From the NCBI RefSeq assembly GCF_004122095.1, contig NZ_SAWZ01000002.1:124001-188000 (forward strand): a DNA stretch of 64,000 nucleotides, given 5' to 3'. Position 1 is the stretch's first letter, and every line of letters begins with the position of its first letter. This DNA comes from Pseudoxanthomonas composti. Its GTDB lineage: Bacteria > Pseudomonadota > Gammaproteobacteria > Xanthomonadales > Xanthomonadaceae. The translations under genes were made by a program, and so were the position numbers. Shown here piece after piece: positions 21,207-61,526 of this stretch. Below the pieces are notes generated by a model that was not told the DNA's origin, made no database searches, and saw only the letters and a list, made by a program, of their open reading frames with translations.

Positions 21207-21272
21207 CGCATGCGACAGCCCGCGCAGCCGCGAAGAGGCTCCCATAAAGCCGCTCCCACAGAAGCCGCACCC

Positions 21273-21588
21273 ACTGAAGCCGTTCCCACAGGTCTTGCCG
21301 CCTCGGGCGCCTTGGTGGACAAGTTGCGCGTTGTCCACCCTACGTAGGGTGGATGGCGCTCTTCCATCCACCGCCGCGCACTCGCCGATGAAACCGTGAT
21401 CCGCGCGAACGCGGAACTCCCACTGAAGCCGCGCCCACTGAAGCCGTTCCCAGAGGGTCTTGCCGCCTCGGGCGCCTTGGTGGACAAGCTGCGCGTTGTC
21501 CACCCTACGTAGGGTGGATGACGCTCTTCCATCCACCACCGCGCATCTTCCGGAGCAGACCGTGACCCGCGCGAACGCGGGACTGCCG
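21273..21588. repeat. Two direct copies of a hairpin-bearing intergenic repeat
   Basis: Two copies of about 150 bp (21273-21421 and 21437-21588, offset 164 bp) fill the htpX-fimX gap. Each carries GGTGGACAA...TTGTCCACC, then CTACGTAG, then GGTGGATG...CATCCACC, so two hairpins share a central CCACCCTACGTAGGGTGG palindrome. Each copy ends with a GCGCGAACGCGG hairpin. Just upstream (21227-21272) is degenerate REP-like sequence (GCCGCGAAGAGGCT, GCCGCTCCCACAG). The same paired hairpins recur at 60967-61351. Confidence 0.85.
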
Positions 21589-43713: not shown

Positions 43714-43894
43714 GCGATCGCCGCCTGCGCCTTGCGCCGTCGGGATTCGCGTGCGACCATGCGCGCCCGATGAACATGACCACGCTCCTTCACGCAAGCG
43801 CCGCCCGGATGGCCTCGGGCATGACCTCGCGTGCTCGCCGACCGGAATCCCACATCCTCGCTGGGTGACCGGAAGCTGCGTGCTGTCTGATCTG

Positions 43895-44017: not shown

Positions 44018-45022
44018 ATGTCTCTCAAGCACTTCCTGAACACCCAGGACTGGAGCCGCAACGAGCTGGACGCGCTGCTGACCCAGGCCGCACTGTTCAA
44101 GCGCAACAAGCTGGGAGATCAGCTCAAGGGCAAGTCGGTGGCGCTGGTGTTCTTCAACCCGTCCATGCGCACCCGCACCAGCTTCGAGCTGGGCACCTTC
44201 CAGTTGGGCGGCCACGCGGTGGTGCTGCAGCCGGGCAAGGACGCCTGGCCGATCGAGTTCGACCTGGGCACGGTGATGGACGGCGACACCGAGGAGCACA
44301 TCGCCGAGGTGGCCAAGGTGCTGGGGCGCTATGCCGACCTGGTGGCGGTGCGGGCGTTCCCGAAGTTCGTGGACTGGCAGATCGATCGCCAGGATCGCGT
44401 GCTGCAGAGCTTCGCCAAGTACTGCCCGGTGCCGGTCATCAACATGGAGACCATCACCCATCCCTGCCAGGAACTGGCGCATGTGATGGCCCTGCAGGAG
44501 CATTTCGGCACCCAGGACCTGCGCGGCAAGAAGTACGTGCTGACCTGGACCTACCACCCCAAGCCGCTCAACACCGCCGTGGCCAACTCGGCCCTGACCA
44601 TCGCCACCCGCATGGGCATGGACGTGACCCTGCTGTGCCCGACGCCCGAGTACATCCTCGATGAGCGCTACATGGGCTGGGCGCAGGACAACGTGGCCGA
44701 GAGCGGCGGCTCGCTGCAGGTCAGCCACGATATCGAGAGCGCCTACCGCGGCGCCGACGTGGTCTATGCCAAGAGCTGGGGCGCGTTGCCGTACTTCGGC
44801 AACTGGGGCCCGGAAAAGCCGATCCGCGACCAGTACAAGCACTTCATCGTCGACGAAGCCAAGATGGCCCTGACCAACAACGGCGTCTTCAGCCACTGCC
44901 TGCCGCTGCGTCGGAATGTCAAAGCGACCGACGCGGTCATGGATTCGCCCCAGTGCATCGCCATCGACGAGGCCGAGAACCGCCTGCATGTGCAGAAGGC
45001 GATCATGGCCGCCCTGATCTAG
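44018..45022 (+). CDS. argF': N-acetylornithine carbamoyltransferase
   Basis: 334 residues. Carbamoyl-phosphate site SMRTRTS and HPCQELA; CLPLRRNVKATDAV near the end. Residues reported as diagnostic for the Xanthomonas acetylornithine enzyme fall at the same numbers here: W77, E92, E144, K252, C294, R298 and K302 (the carboxylated lysine). It therefore carbamoylates N-acetylornithine to N-acetylcitrulline, not ornithine. It is first of the arginine cluster. Its stop codon TAG directly abuts the left arm of a heptad inverted repeat. Confidence 0.95.
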   Translation: MSLKHFLNTQDWSRNELDALLTQAALFKRNKLGDQLKGKSVALVFFNPSMRTRTSFELGTFQLGGHAVVLQPGKDAWPIEFDLGTVMDGDTEEHIAEVAKVLGRYADLVAVRAFPKFVDWQIDRQDRVLQSFAKYCPVPVINMETITHPCQELAHVMALQEHFGTQDLRGKKYVLTWTYHPKPLNTAVANSALTIATRMGMDVTLLCPTPEYILDERYMGWAQDNVAESGGSLQVSHDIESAYRGADVVYAKSWGALPYFGNWGPEKPIRDQYKHFIVDEAKMALTNNGVFSHCLPLRRNVKATDAVMDSPQCIAIDEAENRLHVQKAIMAALI

Positions 45023-45122
45023 GAACGAGTGAATAGGAACGAGGAACGAGTGCCGTTTCCTCGCTCCACCGCGCAGTTCCTGCGACCCACACTCGTTTCT
45101 CGTTCCTCATCACTCGTTTCTC
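45022..45122. repeat. Heptad-arm inverted repeat, argF'-argG gap
   Basis: The left arm 45022-45052 is built from 7-nt units (GAACGAG, TGAATAG, GAACGAG, GAACGAG, TG). The right arm 45090-45122 is its imperfect complement (units CTCGTTT, CTCGTTC, CTCATCA, CTCGTTT). A 37-nt loop separates them. The left arm begins on the last base of the argF' stop; the right arm ends 16 nt before argG. Confidence 0.85.
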
Positions 45123-45138
45123 TCCATAAGGTCCCCAA

Positions 45139-46344
45139 ATGAGTCAGACCAAAGACATCGTCCTCGCCTTCTCCGGCGGCCTGGACACCAGCTTCTGCGT
45201 GCCCTACCTGCAGGAGCGGGGCTACGCCGTGCACACCGTGTTCGCCGATACGGGCGGGGTGGACGACGAGGAGCGGGCCTTCATCGAGCAGCGCGCCGCC
45301 GAGCTGGGCGTGGCCAGCCACGTCACCGTCGATGGCGGCCCTGCCATCTGGGCCGGCTTCGTCAAGCCGTTCGTGTGGGCCGGCGAGGCCTACCAGGGCC
45401 AGTACCCGCTGCTGGTCTCGGACCGCTATCTGATCGTCGATGCCGCGCTCAAGCGCGCCGCCGAGCTGGGCACCAAGGCCATTGCCCACGGCTGCACCGG
45501 CATGGGCAACGACCAGGTGCGCTTCGACCTGGCGGTCAAGGCGCTGGGCGACTACGAGATCGTCGCGCCGATCCGCGAGATCCAGAAGGAGCACACCCAG
45601 ACCCGCGCTTACGAGCAGAAGTATCTGGAAGAGCGCGGCTTCGGCGTGCGCGCCAAGCAGCAGGCCTACACCATCAACGAGAACCTGCTGGGCCTGACCA
45701 TGTCCGGCGGCGAGATCGACAAGTGGGAAGCGCCGGGCGAGGGCGCCCGCGGCTGGTGCGCGCCGCGCGCCGAGTGGCCGCAAGCGCCGCTGTCGGTGAC
45801 CTTGCGCTTCGTCGAGGGCGAGGCGGTGGCGCTGGATGGCGAAACGCTGGCCGGCGAGAAGATCCTGGCCAGGCTCAACAAGCTGTTCGCCCCCTACGGC
45901 GTGGGCCGCGGCGTCTACACCGGCGATACCGTAATCGGCCTGAAGGGCCGCATCGTCTACGAAGCCCCGGGCCTGATCTCGCTGCTGGCTGCGCACCGCG
46001 CGCTGGAGGATGCGGTGCTGACCAAGCAGCAGAACCGCTTCAAGCCGGAAGTGGCGCGCAAGTGGGTAGAGCTGGTCTACGAAGGCTTCTACCACGACCC
46101 GCTCAAGACCGACATCGAGGCCTTCCTCAAGTCCTCCCAGGCCAAGGTCAACGGCGAGGTGGTGCTGCGTACCGACGGTGGCCGCGTCGAGGCCGTGGCA
46201 GTGAGCTCGCCGCACATCCTCAACGCCAAGGGCGCCACCTACGCGCAGTCGGCCGACTGGGGCGTGGAGGAGGCGGAAGGGTTCATCAAGCTGTTCGGGA
46301 TGAGCTCGACGCTGTATGCGCAAGTGAATGGTAGGAACGAGTGA
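45139..46344 (+). CDS. argG: Argininosuccinate synthase
   Basis: 401 residues. ATP pyrophosphatase loop [11 protein letters not shown], then [15 protein letters not shown] and [12 protein letters not shown]. It condenses citrulline and aspartate using ATP. AAGG lies 7 nt before ATG 45139, just after the right arm of the first heptad repeat. The last four codons (GRNE) and the TGA belong to the left arm of the next repeat (46334 onward), so that repeat supplies the stop. Confidence 0.96.
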
Positions 46345-46639
46345 TTAGGAACGAGGAACGAGTGGGGCTGCTGGCATTGTCTGTTCCCCGCGACGCTCGT
46401 TTCTCGTCTTCTCCACGCGTTCCTCGCCCGAAAGTAGAAACGAGTGAGTAGAAACGAGGAACGAGTGGCATTGCCAGCACGGCCTGCTCTCGCGGCTCTC
46501 GTTCCTCGTTCCTCTCCACTCGTTCCTCGCCCGAAAGTAGAAACGTAGTGAGTAGAAGCGAGGAACGAGTGCCATTGCCAGCACGGCCTGCTCTCGCGGC
46601 TCTCGTTCCTCGTTCCTCGTTCCTCTCCACTCGTTCCTC
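46334..46639. repeat. Array of three heptad-arm inverted repeats, argG-GNAT gap
   Basis: Three hairpin units: arms 46334-46364/46394-46425, 46437-46467/46498-46528 and 46540-46571/46602-46639. All are built of 7-nt units (GAACGAG and TGANTAG on the left; CTCGTTC on the right). Units are joined by an identical connector GCCCGAAAGTA (46426-46436, 46529-46539). The loops of units 2 and 3 are the same apart from their first base, so unit 3 is a recent tandem copy. The third right arm is 38 nt against 31, one extra CTCGTTC. The 46345-46660 gap holds no gene. Confidence 0.88.
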
Positions 46640-46660
46640 GCTGCAACGCCATCCGCCCCC

Positions 46661-47116
46661 ATGAACCCTCTCCACATCTCCACCGACCCAACCCACCTGG
46701 ACCTGGACGTGATCCATGACTTCCTGCGCCAGGCCTATTGGTCGCGGGAGATTCCGCGCGAGACGGTGCAGCGGGCCATCGCCGGCTCGCTGTGCTTCGG
46801 GGGTTATGTGGACGGGGCGGGGCAGGTGGCGTTCGCGCGGGTCATCACCGATGGCGCCACCTTCGCCTACCTGGCCGATGTATTCGTGCTGGAAGACCAG
46901 CGCGGCAAGGGCTACAGCAAGCAGCTGATGCAGGCCGTCATGGCCCATCCGCAGCTGCAGGGCCTGCGCCGCTTCATGCTGGCGACCTGGGACGCGCACG
47001 GCCTGTACGCCCAGTTCGGTTTCCAGCCGGCCGCGCGCCCTGACCGACTGATGGAAAAGCTGGACATGGACGTTTACACCCGCAACGCCGCACCCCCCAG
47101 CGCATCGACACCCTGA
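46661..47116 (+). CDS. GNAT-family N-acetyltransferase of the arginine cluster
   Basis: 151 residues. The acetyl-CoA loop is DQRGKGYSKQLM (near residue 80), with VFVLED and a C-terminal YAQFGFQPA. The substrate is unknown. Genes of this type sit between argG and argE' in xanthomonads, so a link to arginine intermediates is possible, but primary acetylglutamate synthesis is covered by the fused enzyme at 48347. No clear ribosome site; ATG 46661 lies 21 nt after the repeat array. Confidence 0.82.
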   Translation: MNPLHISTDPTHLDLDVIHDFLRQAYWSREIPRETVQRAIAGSLCFGGYVDGAGQVAFARVITDGATFAYLADVFVLEDQRGKGYSKQLMQAVMAHPQLQGLRRFMLATWDAHGLYAQFGFQPAARPDRLMEKLDMDVYTRNAAPPSASTP

Positions 47117-47146
47117 GCCCAAGCCCGAGTTCCGGCTCTGCTGTCG

Positions 47147-47187
47147 CTCACTCCTCACTCCTCACTCCCCGCCCCACCACTCACTCC
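47147..47187. repeat. Half heptad element before argE'
   Basis: Three exact CTCACTC heptads (47147-47167), then CCC and, after a 14-nt break, CACTCACTCC. No complementary GAGTGAG arm is present to the left. It ends 7 nt before the argE' ATG. Confidence 0.7.
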
Positions 47188-47194
47188 TTATCCC

Positions 47195-48289
47195 ATGACG
47201 CCTTTGCTCGAAACCACGCTGACGCATCTGGAGAAGCTGGTGTCCTTCGACACCCGCAATCCCCCGCGTGCGCTGACCACCGGCGGCATCTTCGATTACC
47301 TGCGCCAGCAGCTGCCGGGCTTCCAGGTCGAGGTGATCGATCACGGCGCCGGGGCGATCAGCTTCTACGCGGTGCGCGGCAAGCCGAAGTACCTGTTCAA
47401 TGTCCACCTGGACACGGTGCCGGACTCGCCGCACTGGAGCGCCGATCCGCATGTGATGCGCCGTGCAGCCGACCGGGTGGTGGGCCTGGGCGTGTGCGAC
47501 ATCAAGGGCGCGGCGGCCGCGCTCATCGCCGCGGCCAATGCCGGCGATGGCGATGCCGCCTTCCTGTTCTCCTCCGACGAGGAGGCCAACGACCCGCGCT
47601 GCATCGCCGCGTTCCTGGCCCGCGGTTTGCCCTACGAGGCGATCCTGGTGGCCGAGCCGACCATGGGCGAGGCGGTGCTGGCGCATCGTGGCATCAGCTC
47701 GGTGCTGATGAAGTTCGCCGGCCGCGCCGGCCACGCCTCGGGCAAGCAGGACCCCTCGGCCAGCGCGCTGCACCAGGCCATGCGCTGGGGCGGCAAGGCC
47801 TTGGATCATGTCGAATCGCTCAGCCATGCGCGCTTTGGCGGGCTGACCGGGCTGCGCTTCAACATCGGCCGGGTCGAGGGCGGCATCAAGGCCAATATGA
47901 TCGCCCCGGCCGCCGAGCTGCGCTTCGGCTTCCGGCCGCTGCCGTCGATGGACATCGACGCGCTGCTGGCCACCTTCGCCGGCTTCGCCGAACCGGCCGC
48001 GGCGTACTTCGAGGAGACCTTCCGCGGCCCGAGCCTGCCGTCGGGCGACATCGCCCGCGCCGAGGAGCGGCGCCTGGCCGCGCGCGACGTGGCCGACGAA
48101 CTGCATCTGCCCATCGGCAACGCCGTGGACTTCTGGACCGAGGCCTCGCTGTTCTCCGCCGGCGGCTACACCGCCCTGGTCTACGGCCCGGGCGACATCG
48201 CCCAGGCGCATACGGCCGATGAGTTCGTGACGCTGGAACAGCTGCAGCGCTACGCCGAATCGGTCCACCGCATCATCAACGGGCGTTGA
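47195..48289 (+). CDS. argE': N-acetylcitrulline/acetylornithine deacetylase (M20 family)
   Basis: 364 residues. Metal-binding motifs NVHLDTVPDSP (His and Asp), GLGVCDIKGAAAAL and SSDEEAND (catalytic Glu), with a later YGPGDIAQAHTADEFV carrying the last His. In xanthomonads the enzyme at this place removes acetyl from N-acetylcitrulline, the product of ArgF', giving citrulline for ArgG. The sequence alone does not separate it from acetylornithine deacetylase; the neighbourhood does. Confidence 0.9.
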   Translation: MTPLLETTLTHLEKLVSFDTRNPPRALTTGGIFDYLRQQLPGFQVEVIDHGAGAISFYAVRGKPKYLFNVHLDTVPDSPHWSADPHVMRRAADRVVGLGVCDIKGAAAALIAAANAGDGDAAFLFSSDEEANDPRCIAAFLARGLPYEAILVAEPTMGEAVLAHRGISSVLMKFAGRAGHASGKQDPSASALHQAMRWGGKALDHVESLSHARFGGLTGLRFNIGRVEGGIKANMIAPAAELRFGFRPLPSMDIDALLATFAGFAEPAAAYFEETFRGPSLPSGDIARAEERRLAARDVADELHLPIGNAVDFWTEASLFSAGGYTALVYGPGDIAQAHTADEFVTLEQLQRYAESVHRIINGR

Positions 48290-49673: not shown

Positions 49674-50282
49674 ATGGACGCGGCGATCGCCAACGCCTGG
49701 ACCAGTGTGCCGACCCTGCGCGGCGAGCACGTCACCCTGGTGCCGCTCTCGCCCGCGCACGCGCAGGGCCTGCGCGAGGTCGTGGCCGACGGCGTGCTGC
49801 CCGCGCTGTGGTACACCGGCGTGCCCAAGGCCGAGGCCATCGATGATTTCATTGCCGCGGCCCTGGAGGACCAGGCCCAGGGACGCGCGCTGTGCTTCGT
49901 CGCGCTGGACGCACAGGGGGTGGTCGCCGGCTCCACGCGTTTCTACGACATCGACCGGGCCGTGCCGCGCCTGAGCATCGGCTACACCTGGTATGCGCCG
50001 CGGGTGCAGCGCACCGGCTTGAACACCCAGGCCAAGCGGCTGCTGCTGGGCCACGCCTTCGACACGCTGGGCTGCGAGGCGGTGGTGTTCGAAACCAGCT
50101 GGTTCAACCACGCCTCGCGCGCCGCCATCGCGCGGCTGGGCGCGCGCCAGGACGGCGTGCTGCGCGCGCACCGGCGCCATGCCGATGGCTCGCTGCGCGA
50201 CACCGTCGTGTTCTCCATCCTTTCCCACGAATGGCCGGCTGTCAGGACCCACCTGCAGCATCGGCTGGACAAGCACGCATGA
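49674..50282 (+). CDS. GNAT acetyltransferase, RimJ/RimL type
   Basis: 202 residues; ATG 49674 is 1 nt after the argB stop and the gene overlaps argC by 4 nt, so it is translated within the arginine operon. RimL-like blocks: [62 protein letters not shown]. It likely acetylates a protein N-terminus or small amine. Its conserved embedding between argB and argC suggests a link to arginine supply, but no function is shown. Confidence 0.82.
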
Positions 50283-51232
50283 CCTCAAAGACCTTCACCG
50301 TCGGCATCGTCGGCGCCCGCGGCCATACCGGCAGCGAGCTGATCAAGCTGATTTCGACCCACCCGCAACTGACGCTGGCATTCGTCTCCTCGCGCGAGCT
50401 GGACGGGCAGCCGGTCAGCGCGCACAACGCCGCCTATGCCGGCGAGCTGCGCTTCGAGAACCTGGACGCCGATGCGGTGGCCGCCAAGGGCGCCGATGCG
50501 GTGATCCTGGCGCTGCCCAATGGCAAGGCGCAGGCCTATGCCGAAGCGGTGAGCGCCGCGCGCGCCGATACGGTGCTGGTGGACCTCTCGGCCGATTACC
50601 GCTTCGAATCGAGCTGGTACTACGGACTGCCGGAGCTGACCCGTGGCCGGTACGCCGGCCAGAAGCACATCAGCAATCCGGGCTGCTACGCCACGGCGAT
50701 GCAGCTGGCGATCGCGCCGCTGCTGGACCAGCTGGCCGGGCCGCCGCAGTGCTTTGGCGTGTCGGGTTATTCCGGTGCCGGCACCACGCCCTCGGACAAG
50801 AACGACCCGGCGCTGCTGGCCGACAACCTGATGCCGTACTCGCTGACCAACCACATGCACGAGCGCGAGGTCTCCGCGCAGCTGGGCGTGCCGGTGGAGT
50901 TCATGCCGCACGTGGCACCGCATTTCCGCGGCATCACCATGACGGTGAACCTGTGGCTGCAGCAGCCGATGAGCCGCGAGGCGATCAAGGACCTGTACCA
51001 GGCACGCTATGCCGACGAGCCGCTGATCGAGGTGGTCGACGATGCACCCTGGGTCAGCCGGATCGCCGGCCGGCACGGCGTGCAGATCGGCGCCTTCACC
51101 GTGGCCCCGGGCGGCAAGCGCGTGGTGGTGGTGGCGACCCTGGACAACCTGCTCAAGGGCGCGGCCACCCAGGCCATGCAGAACCTCAACCTGGCGCTCG
51201 GGCTGCCCGAGCTGACTTCGATTCCTGTTTGA
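50279..51232 (+). CDS. argC: N-acetyl-gamma-glutamyl-phosphate reductase
   Basis: 317 residues from ATG 50279 ([20 protein letters not shown]). NADP loop GARGHTG, catalytic Cys in [12 protein letters not shown], and [13 protein letters not shown]. It reduces acetylglutamyl phosphate to the semialdehyde, the third step of the pathway. The stop is 6 nt before the left arm of a GGGACCG heptad repeat. Confidence 0.96.
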
Positions 51233-51238
51233 ATCAGC

Positions 51239-51328
51239 GGGACCGGGGACCGGGGACCGGGGACCCGGGAAAAGCCGGAGCGTCAGCTCTTGCTCTTCCC
51301 GGGTCCCGGGTCCCTGGTCCCCGGTCCC
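51239..51328. repeat. Heptad-arm inverted repeat of the GGGACCG type, argC-argH gap
   Basis: The left arm 51239-51271 is GGGACCG three times, then GGGACCC and GGGAA (33 nt). The right arm 51296-51328 is TTCCC plus four heptads ending GGTCCC (33 nt) and pairs with the left arm with few mismatches. The loop is 24 nt. The right arm ends 16 nt before argH. Same design as the GAACGAG elements but a different heptad. Confidence 0.88.
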
Positions 51329-51344
51329 GCAACAAGGACCCGCA

Positions 51345-60743: not shown

Positions 60744-60966
60744 CCGCGCAGAGGATGCGTGGCAGCGGGCGCTGTTGAACGCCGCAGCCCCAGCTGGCAT
60801 ATGGCAATTAGCGGCGACAAGCCCGCAAGCTTTGGCGGCGGAGATCGAGGGAACGGTGCCGTGGCGCACTGTTCTCTGCTCGAAGCAGCGCCCTACGCGA
60901 GCGACTATCGAAGTGACCAACGCCGCTCCCGCACCTGGGAGAGGCAGGGAACCAGGCGGCAATTTC

Positions 60967-61351
60967 GTAGGGTGGATGACGCTCCTCCATCCACCGTCGC
61001 GGAGTCGGGCGACGCGCTCATGTCGGAACCCCACGCTCCGCCGCCGCAGGCCCTGGTGGACAAGCTTCGCGTTGTCCACCCTACGTAGGGTGGATGACGC
61101 TTCTCCATCCACCACCACGGAACGGCCAACGCGCTCATGTCGGCACCTCATGCTCCGCCGCCGCAGGCCCTGGTGGACAAGCTCCGCCTTGTCCACCCTA
61201 CGTAGGGTGGATGGCGCTCCTCCATCCACCGCCGCCGCGGAACGAGCACCGCGGTCTTGAAAGCGTCTCGCGCTCATCCGCGCAGGCGCCGTGGTGGACA
61301 AGCCTCGCGTTGTCCACCCGCCGTAGGGTGGATGGCGCTTTTCCATCCACC
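60967..61351. repeat. Four copies of the paired GGTGGACAA/GGTGGATG hairpin repeat
   Basis: The 60744-61526 gap has no gene. It holds hairpins at about 60967-60995 (second hairpin only), 61054-61113, 61172-61230 and 61293-61351. Each complete copy has GGTGGACAA...TTGTCCACC, a GTAG core, then GGTGGATG...CATCCACC. Copies are about 118-121 bp apart, with a partly conserved spacer (GCTCATGTCGG, CGCCGCCGCAGGCCCTGGTG). Stems are conserved while 6-8 nt loops vary, suggesting selection on structure. Confidence 0.87.
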
Positions 61352-61526
61352 ATTTGCTCCAGACGGACATGGTGGCCATGGCTGGCGTGCCGGCCTCGGT
61401 CGCCCGCCTGCCTGCTCAGGCAGGGCCGCGCAAATGAACCGAATTCAGTCTTTGTGGCCTGCGCTTGCCTGCCCTGGAAGCGGAACCCGGAGCCCGCTGG
61501 CAGTGATCCACAAGCTTTGCCCTTAA

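Follow-up and report, generated by a model that had tools for sequence, protein, structure and literature searches.

Tandem hairpins with arms of 7-nt units behind argG in Pseudoxanthomonas composti: candidate REP-like gene-end elements of the Lysobacteraceae

In Pseudoxanthomonas composti, argG is followed by 3 inverted repeats of about 97 to 104 nt with arms of AGGAACG heptads (positions 46331 to 46641), and only then by a gene for a GNAT acetyltransferase, which raises the question of what these repeats are, how they are maintained, and whether they serve the genes that they follow. All positions refer to the window, by which we mean the whole stretch of 64,000 nt that was analyzed (contig NZ_SAWZ01000002.1, positions 124,001 to 188,000). 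A preliminary description had reported 3 hairpin units, identical 11-nt connectors, and near-identical loops in units 2 and 3, all of which were recovered here (Table 1). The direct repeat that units 2 and 3 have in common spans 72 nt, loops included, and is 97% identical. It was also confirmed that the right arm of unit 3 exceeds that of unit 2 by exactly one CTCGTTC heptad, although the revised boundaries give arms of 40 and 33 nt rather than 38 and 31 nt.

Table 1. Positions of the array, of the other heptad elements, and of the neighboring genes in the window.
Feature	Position	Strand	Details
argF', N-acetylornithine carbamoyltransferase	44018-45022	+	NF003384, 636.1 bits; TAG stop overlaps the next element
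Single AGGAACG-family element between argF' and argG	45021-45122		RNA fold of 45021-45130, z -8.2
argG, argininosuccinate synthase	45139-46344	+	NF003385, 808.8 bits
Array unit 1, inverted repeat	46331-46427		Left arm 46331-46365, right arm 46396-46427; RNA fold z -4.1
Connector CCCGAAAGTAG between units 1 and 2	46427-46437		11 nt; identical second copy at 46530-46540
Array unit 2, inverted repeat	46434-46530		Left arm 46436-46468, right arm 46498-46530; RNA fold z -5.3
Array unit 3, inverted repeat closely resembling unit 2	46538-46641		Right arm 46602-46641, one additional heptad; RNA fold z -3.6
GNAT acetyltransferase gene	46661-47116	+	PF00583, 44.3 bits; start 20 nt past the array
Three CTCACTC heptads (AGGAGTG type), single arm	47147-47168		Between the GNAT gene and the acetylornithine deacetylase gene (47195-48289)
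GGGACCG-type heptad hairpin, nearly perfect pairing	51239-51329		RNA fold of 51236-51332, -100.6 kcal/mol, z -11.8

The arms had been described as tandem heptads (GAACGAG/CTCGTTC). This holds for the 7-nt periodicity, since the autocorrelation of the array was highest at lag 7 (0.43) among lags 2 to 12, with lag 4 as the runner-up (0.34), but it does not hold for a pure tandem. In most arms, heptads 1, 3, and 4 are AGGAACG or single-base variants thereof, whereas heptad 2 is a different 7-mer, AGTGANT or AGTGGAG, which puts a mismatch into the stem of the array units. When folded as RNA, the whole array reached -161.9 kcal/mol (z -8.3), and none of 100 shuffles was equally good. The first arm of unit 1 supplies the last 3 codons of argG (R-N-E) and its TGA stop codon. 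A scan of the window with Rfam placed no family over the array, and none of the matches listed from the genus, which is represented by 37 other genomes in collections with one genome per species, spans the array at the argG-GNAT site; the nearest relatives have 92% to 93% argG identity. Read as its reverse complement, the loop of unit 2 resembles that of unit 1 (p = 0.0012 against shuffles, compared with p = 0.16 for the forward orientation). The resemblance was spotted by eye before it was tested, and it offers only a hint that the loop inversion is a trace of template switching.

The same arms are found throughout the genome. The 14-mer at the core of the arm, GAACGAGGAACGAG, occurs 158 times in the 4.33-Mb genome when overlapping matches are counted, while its reversed control does not occur in the same genome. 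Searching the genome with the array itself gave 141 matches, with E-values of up to 10 and several overlapping pieces per place, a figure that is therefore no copy count. We collected 70 palindromic copies of the AGGAACG type and 6 of the AGGAGTG type from fetched loci, most of which had been picked by the arm-core motif and which represent a part of the genome; unit 1 of the array fails the arm-core limit and is outside the 70 copies. The left arms and the reverse-complemented right arms of these 70 copies have nearly the same 33-nt consensus, AGGAACGAGTGRAGAGGAACGAGGAACGAGTGA. Their loops are 15 to 89 nt long (median 32 nt) and mostly unrelated, with 6 similar pairs among the 70 copies. The few AGGAGTG copies follow the same plan with another heptad.

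The preliminary description had raised a diverged MITE copy as an alternative. The array does not have that look: the conserved interior that a MITE has between its terminal inverted repeats is absent, as judged from the loops.

In the window itself, another AGGAACG element is located 1.3 kb upstream of the array, and the GGGACCG-type hairpin directly follows argC (50279-51232). Repeats of other kinds were also noted. A 117-bp unit with CGTAGGGTGGATGA...GTTGTCCACCCTA is repeated in tandem about 3.3 times at positions 60966 to 61352, forming a GTAG-tagged palindrome array that is unrelated to the heptads. A 165-bp unit is present twice at positions 21253 to 21584; it has inner repeats of 15 bp (GCTCCCACAGAAGCC) and a similar palindrome, GTAGGGTGGA. 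Just before argF', positions 43768 to 43889 match the Xanthomonadaceae sRNA Xoo5 (RF02242, 89.7 bits).

A search of relatives for palindromes with 7-bp-periodic arms, as the preliminary description had proposed, singled out this unit length. With a detector that treats all unit lengths from 4 to 12 nt alike, inverted pairs were found in 140 loci of Lysobacteraceae (2.64 Mb) almost exclusively at a unit length of 7 nt (52 pairs); units of 6 nt gave 2 pairs, and units of 4, 5, or 8 to 12 nt gave none. Among the right arms of the 52 pairs, 48 are distinct. The pairs are spread over 33 of the 140 loci: the argG loci of named relatives, of which the best 80 out of 573 were used, account for 31, the 400 kb from this genome for 11, the 400 kb from the genus for 8, and four 100-kb samples for 2 (1, 1, 0, and 0 in genomes G049, G036, G118, and G025, which is below the expectation from pattern counts). 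Inverted pairs were absent from simulated sequence and from 20 stretches of 9 genomes in other families of the class (400 kb in all, unmatched in base composition). In 50 of the 52 pairs, G outnumbers C in the left arm, so that the G-rich arm comes first. Plain tandem repeats in 400 kb of this genome were more numerous at 6, 9, and 12 nt (70, 52, and 49) than at 7 nt (37), which coding sequence would lead one to expect; it is among the inverted pairs that 7 nt stands out.

The distribution of the heptad types over the family is patchy. Double units of GAGGARYG were identified in 15 of 119 sampled Lysobacteraceae genomes and 11 of 54 genera, with 287 in this genome and 237 in G025, whereas triple units of GGGANYN were identified in 77 of the 119 genomes and 41 of the 54 genera, all counts being of overlapping matches. 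Genomes with one to four matches may owe them to chance. The reversed GAGGARYG control gave 25 matches in this genome and 65 in G025, counts that are above zero because the pattern also fits AGGAGTG arrays. Reversed GGGANYN was near zero in most genomes but more frequent than the forward pattern in a few of them (G062, G050).

The junction between argF' and argG allowed orthologous hairpins to be compared between species. We assembled 110 junction loci, including species present in two genome collections, and the junction could be excised automatically in 99 of these; 3 of the 11 failures (L077, L131, and L110) were cut by position for an alignment of 28 sequences. The junction of G147, which belongs to the same genus as the window, is identical to the one in a named record of Pseudoxanthomonas kalamensis (L251 and L133), so that Pseudoxanthomonas, or a genus split from it, is the most likely source of the window by this comparison. 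By simple rules, the 99 junctions were classified into 31 that were heptad-flagged, 22 of them in both arms and 9 in one arm, 24 with other hairpins, some of which are REP-like, and 44 with no or a short hairpin. One of the one-arm assignments, L113, looks false. The 44 junctions with no or a short hairpin indicate that the element is dispensable at this site. In the 28 sequences, which were chosen for their type, orthologs of one GGG-type hairpin range from Luteimonas and Xanthomonas through to this genus. Its loop holds the argG start codon and aligns across species. Depending on the species, its heptads are GGGATTC, GGGAATC, GGGACCC, GGGACCG, GTGATTC, or GGCCAGG-like. It was also noted that the right arm encodes about codons 8 to 17 of ArgG (L134, L131, L162, and others), and the N-terminus of ArgG thus varies between species with the heptad type.

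Although the heptad type differs between species, both arms of the junction hairpin mostly share the same type. For 30 elements, the arm score within genomes was 16.9, compared with 12.0 ± 0.7 for permuted arms, and none of 20,000 permutations scored as high; for 9 hand-picked representatives of different heptad types, the true pairing was unmatched among 362,880 permutations. Discordant arms were found in L097, L124, L128, and L129, where a GGGAAT-type left arm faces an ATTGGG-type or degenerate right arm, and the arms of L167 and L140 are partly concordant. The AGGAGTG-type junction hairpins of L175 and L189, which represent 2 species of the same genus, have similar loops, and their right arms differ by 7 nt, i.e. 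by one heptad. Growth by whole 7-nt units, as claimed for the array from the sequence alone, is thus seen both between units 2 and 3 and between these 2 loci, and at this junction there is good support for a DNA-level history of 7-nt steps and of linked change in both arms. Variation by exact copies was seen for arms as well as for entire units. One of the loci, L073, comes from a contig record titled Bacillus subtilis SK7B5 that carries a Stenotrophomonas-like argG locus and is probably a contaminated or mislabelled assembly.

Within the AGGAACG family, compensatory covariation between the arms was considered and rejected, the opposite having been found. Aligned in one fixed register per copy, the arms of the 70 copies were identical at 1,833 of 2,310 positions, whereas shuffled arms were identical at 1,891 ± 12, and all 2,000 shuffles gave values at least as high as the true pairing. 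Runs of at least 20 matching positions were present in 3 of the 70 copies (10.7 ± 2.6 after shuffling), and positions 10 to 14, which lie inside heptad 2, were identical in both arms in 2 copies where 7.2 were expected. In this family, perfect stems seem to be avoided, as would fit either the loss of long perfect palindromes in replication or an importance of the internal mismatch itself. The near-perfect GGGACCG hairpin at 51239 shows that the avoidance does not extend to every heptad type. That arms are less matched than shuffled arms argues against base-pairing selection and against efficient ongoing arm-to-arm copying in the AGGAACG family. Among the mismatches, no sense-strand bias toward G-U was found (27 G-U versus 25 A-C), i.e. 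no RNA-level signature.

The positions of the 70 copies relative to genes were determined from gene calls by a codon model trained on this genome. There were 46 copies between same-direction genes, 18 between convergent genes, and 1 in an ambiguous position, and the 5 between divergent genes are a raw count that carries no background frequency of divergent regions. None of the 70 copies was located wholly within a called gene, and 14 overlapped a gene end by 1 to 33 nt. In same-direction intergenic regions, the element was at most 20 nt from the upstream stop codon in 36 of 44 cases, compared with a mean of 20.7 and a maximum of 29 in 5,000 trials of uniform placement in the same regions; it was at most 20 nt from the next start codon in 12 of the 44, and the stop side was the nearer one in 40. 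Among the convergent copies, 16 of 18 were at most 20 nt from at least one stop codon and 8 of 18 from both.

Such positions, together with the strong hairpins predicted by RNA folding and a right arm that is rich in C and poor in G, would suit transcription terminators, either intrinsic ones or Rho-dependent ones for which the pyrimidine-rich right arm is the loading site. We consider this reading improbable, since the U tract of an intrinsic terminator is lacking, TTTT having been found at most 20 nt past the element in only 1 of 46 same-direction copies, since 2 elements and the array are located inside the run of co-directional arg genes, and since the loop of the GGG-type hairpins includes the start codon of argG. 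A scan of positions 44900 to 47300 for terminators with loops of 3 to 8 nt was silent, yet at this loop limit the hairpins are unscorable as such. Nor did the loops look like hidden terminators, as they folded no better than shuffles (mean z -0.19) and contained TTTT in the 3' half in 4 of 46 copies. The repeats could also be selfish or neutral, shaped by slippage and template switching alone and located behind stop codons because copies in genes and promoters have been purged. The avoidance of pairing within the AGGAACG family, the lack of a wobble bias on the sense strand, the dispensability at the argF'-argG junction, and the patchiness between genomes are all in line with this possibility, which we nevertheless doubt, because the copies are closer to stop codons than under uniform placement within the same intergenic regions and because the G-rich-first polarity would be left unexplained.

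Mobilization as REP or REPIN elements by a RAYT (Y1) transposase would agree with the copy number, the palindromes, the intergenic spread, and the placement behind stop codons, which are REP-like in terms of the available text of PMC3733652, and with the presence of PF01797 in 83 of 119 Lysobacteraceae genomes, including one match in this genome (C18:352323). Yet the GTAG tag was found at only 2 of 70 left ends and at none of 70 right ends, 2 heptad-bearing genomes (G049 and G033) gave no match to PF01797, and no AGGAACG or AGGAGTG arms flank the single Y1 match here, so that we regard this origin as very unlikely. That match (L301, positions 1456 to 2797) is instead flanked by unrelated AAACCGGGGTCAGAGTGCAGTTT inverted repeats and is possibly a TIR-type tyrosine-transposase unit. 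Synthesis of heptads on an RNA template by a dedicated enzyme of the telomerase or DRT kind would produce exact 7-nt units of several sequences, and blocks of variant heptads are indeed present in one arm of G010, (GGGTCCC)4 (GAAACCC)4 (GAGTCCC)6; there is also one RVT_1 match in this genome. RVT_1 was found in only 25 of 119 genomes (94 of 119 had none), and neither the heptad-rich G025 nor the heptad-bearing G014 had a match, which leaves this idea with a very slim chance. Equally slim is the chance of G-quadruplex elements, as Rehm et al. (2015) proposed for GGGAATC, even though the 7-nt unit and the paired layout are the same, the placement is similar, and oligonucleotides of the GGGAATC type form G-quadruplexes in vitro according to the part of that paper available to us (PMC4692102). 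No GGG run is present in the consensus heptads AGGAACG and AGGAGTG, which keep the unit length and the layout all the same: the AGGAACG arm consensus, AGGAACGAGTGRAGAGGAACGAGGAACGAG, is without GGG, and among the arms of the 70 AGGAACG-type copies, only 5 left and 7 right ones contain any GGG. Of the 3 trans-acting factors that were tried, RAYT and reverse transcriptase do not fit, and only the lack of SbcD above the model cut-off does.

SbcD exceeded the cut-off in none of the 119 Lysobacteraceae genomes, compared with 8 of 14 control genomes. Matches below the cut-off were present in 5 others of the 14 controls and in 8 Lysobacteraceae genomes, this one included, although weakly, and given these matches the family may have a diverged SbcD. 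Tolerance of palindromes may stem from a lack of SbcCD; the lack of SbcD is family-wide and cannot explain why heptads are patchy within the Lysobacteraceae.

The explanation that we favor, and to which we would give about an even chance, is that these are REP-like gene-end hairpins which are kept by heptad slippage and arm-to-arm copying and act as barriers behind stop codons. The array would then represent 3 tandem copies of a dispersed hairpin of the Lysobacteraceae with arms of 7-nt units. Heptads would be gained and lost through replication slippage, and, as the palindrome folds in the course of replication, template switching would copy the arms onto each other, a process documented to build or repair the arms of inverted repeats in the excerpts available of PMC8794818 and PMC8604942. 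Variant heptads may pass between loci by ectopic conversion, and long perfect stems of the AGGAACG type would be purged, leaving those with a mismatched second heptad. The palindromes might be tolerated because the Lysobacteraceae are without an SbcD palindrome nuclease that reaches the model cut-off. Once transcribed after the stop codon, the element could fold into a 3' barrier that serves as an mRNA stabilizer or as an attenuator between genes, rather than as an intrinsic terminator; this function at the RNA level is suggested by position and fold and is unproven. More tentatively, the hairpins may evolve in concert, in that the register of 7 nt, the polarity with the G-rich arm first, and the location behind the stop codon are inherited while the heptads drift and are swapped in both arms together. 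Seven nucleotides would then be the mutational quantum, and the elements would form RNA barriers behind stop codons with little constraint on their sequence.

Tandem heptanucleotide repeats of cyanobacteria, which we take to be the STRR sequences, resemble these elements in their 7-nt units. They are cited for Calothrix and Nostoc by Rehm et al. (PMC4692102), the accessible text of which mentions few inverted pairs in Nostoc. The same text describes GGGAATC-type heptamers in 2 Xanthomonas genomes, with 70 and 75 convergent pairs, locates the paired heptamers near gene ends, notes that stem-loops are possible, and proposes that the heptamers form G-quadruplexes. Heptad-armed palindromes were thus described in 2015, and the view taken in the preliminary description that they may be an undescribed class had to be abandoned. 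As far as can be judged from the excerpted paper, the repeats of Rehm et al. share with the AGGAACG family the 7-nt unit, the convergent pairing, and a location near stop codons with few divergent cases. They differ in having GGG tracts for G-quadruplexes, which the AGGAACG family has not, whereas the latter has a defined arm of 4 heptads with a divergent second heptad. Relative to the available text of PMC4692102, the linked heptad change of both arms and the avoidance of perfect pairing are added here.

REPs of other bacteria are located near the 3' ends of ORFs and sometimes supply the stop codon, according to the sections seen of PMC3733652. The REP, BIME, and REPIN elements of the GTAG and CGTC superfamilies are, like the AGGAACG family, dispersed intergenic palindromes close to the 3' ends of ORFs (PMC3733652, in part), whereas the AGGAACG family is without the GTAG tag, showed no link to RAYT, and has arms that are heptad tandems and not themselves palindromes. 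Heptamer VNTR loci with 7-nt units such as GGGAATC and GGGATTT are used for typing Xanthomonas (PMC8002079, PMC6459536), with several alleles per locus (PMC8002079); in the accessible parts of these 2 papers, the loci are typing markers and the pairing of arms is unmentioned. Within the open-access literature as far as its text was available, the AGGAACG type, linked heptad change across species, and avoidance of matching were not found described. The AGGAACG family is not an undescribed class but clearly a variant of one that has received little study.

That a heptad lacking GGG retains this unit length and layout is evidence against a general explanation of heptamer repeats in the Lysobacteraceae by G-quadruplexes; the G-quadruplex is not a feature common to heptad repeats, as GGG tracts are absent from AGGAACG. 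The argF'-argG hairpin provides a natural series of many heptad types in which arm-to-arm copying can be dated and counted, and the heptad loci make it testable why the unit is 7 nt. For operon annotation and expression work, for example on the arg cluster, strong hairpins should be expected right past stop codons.
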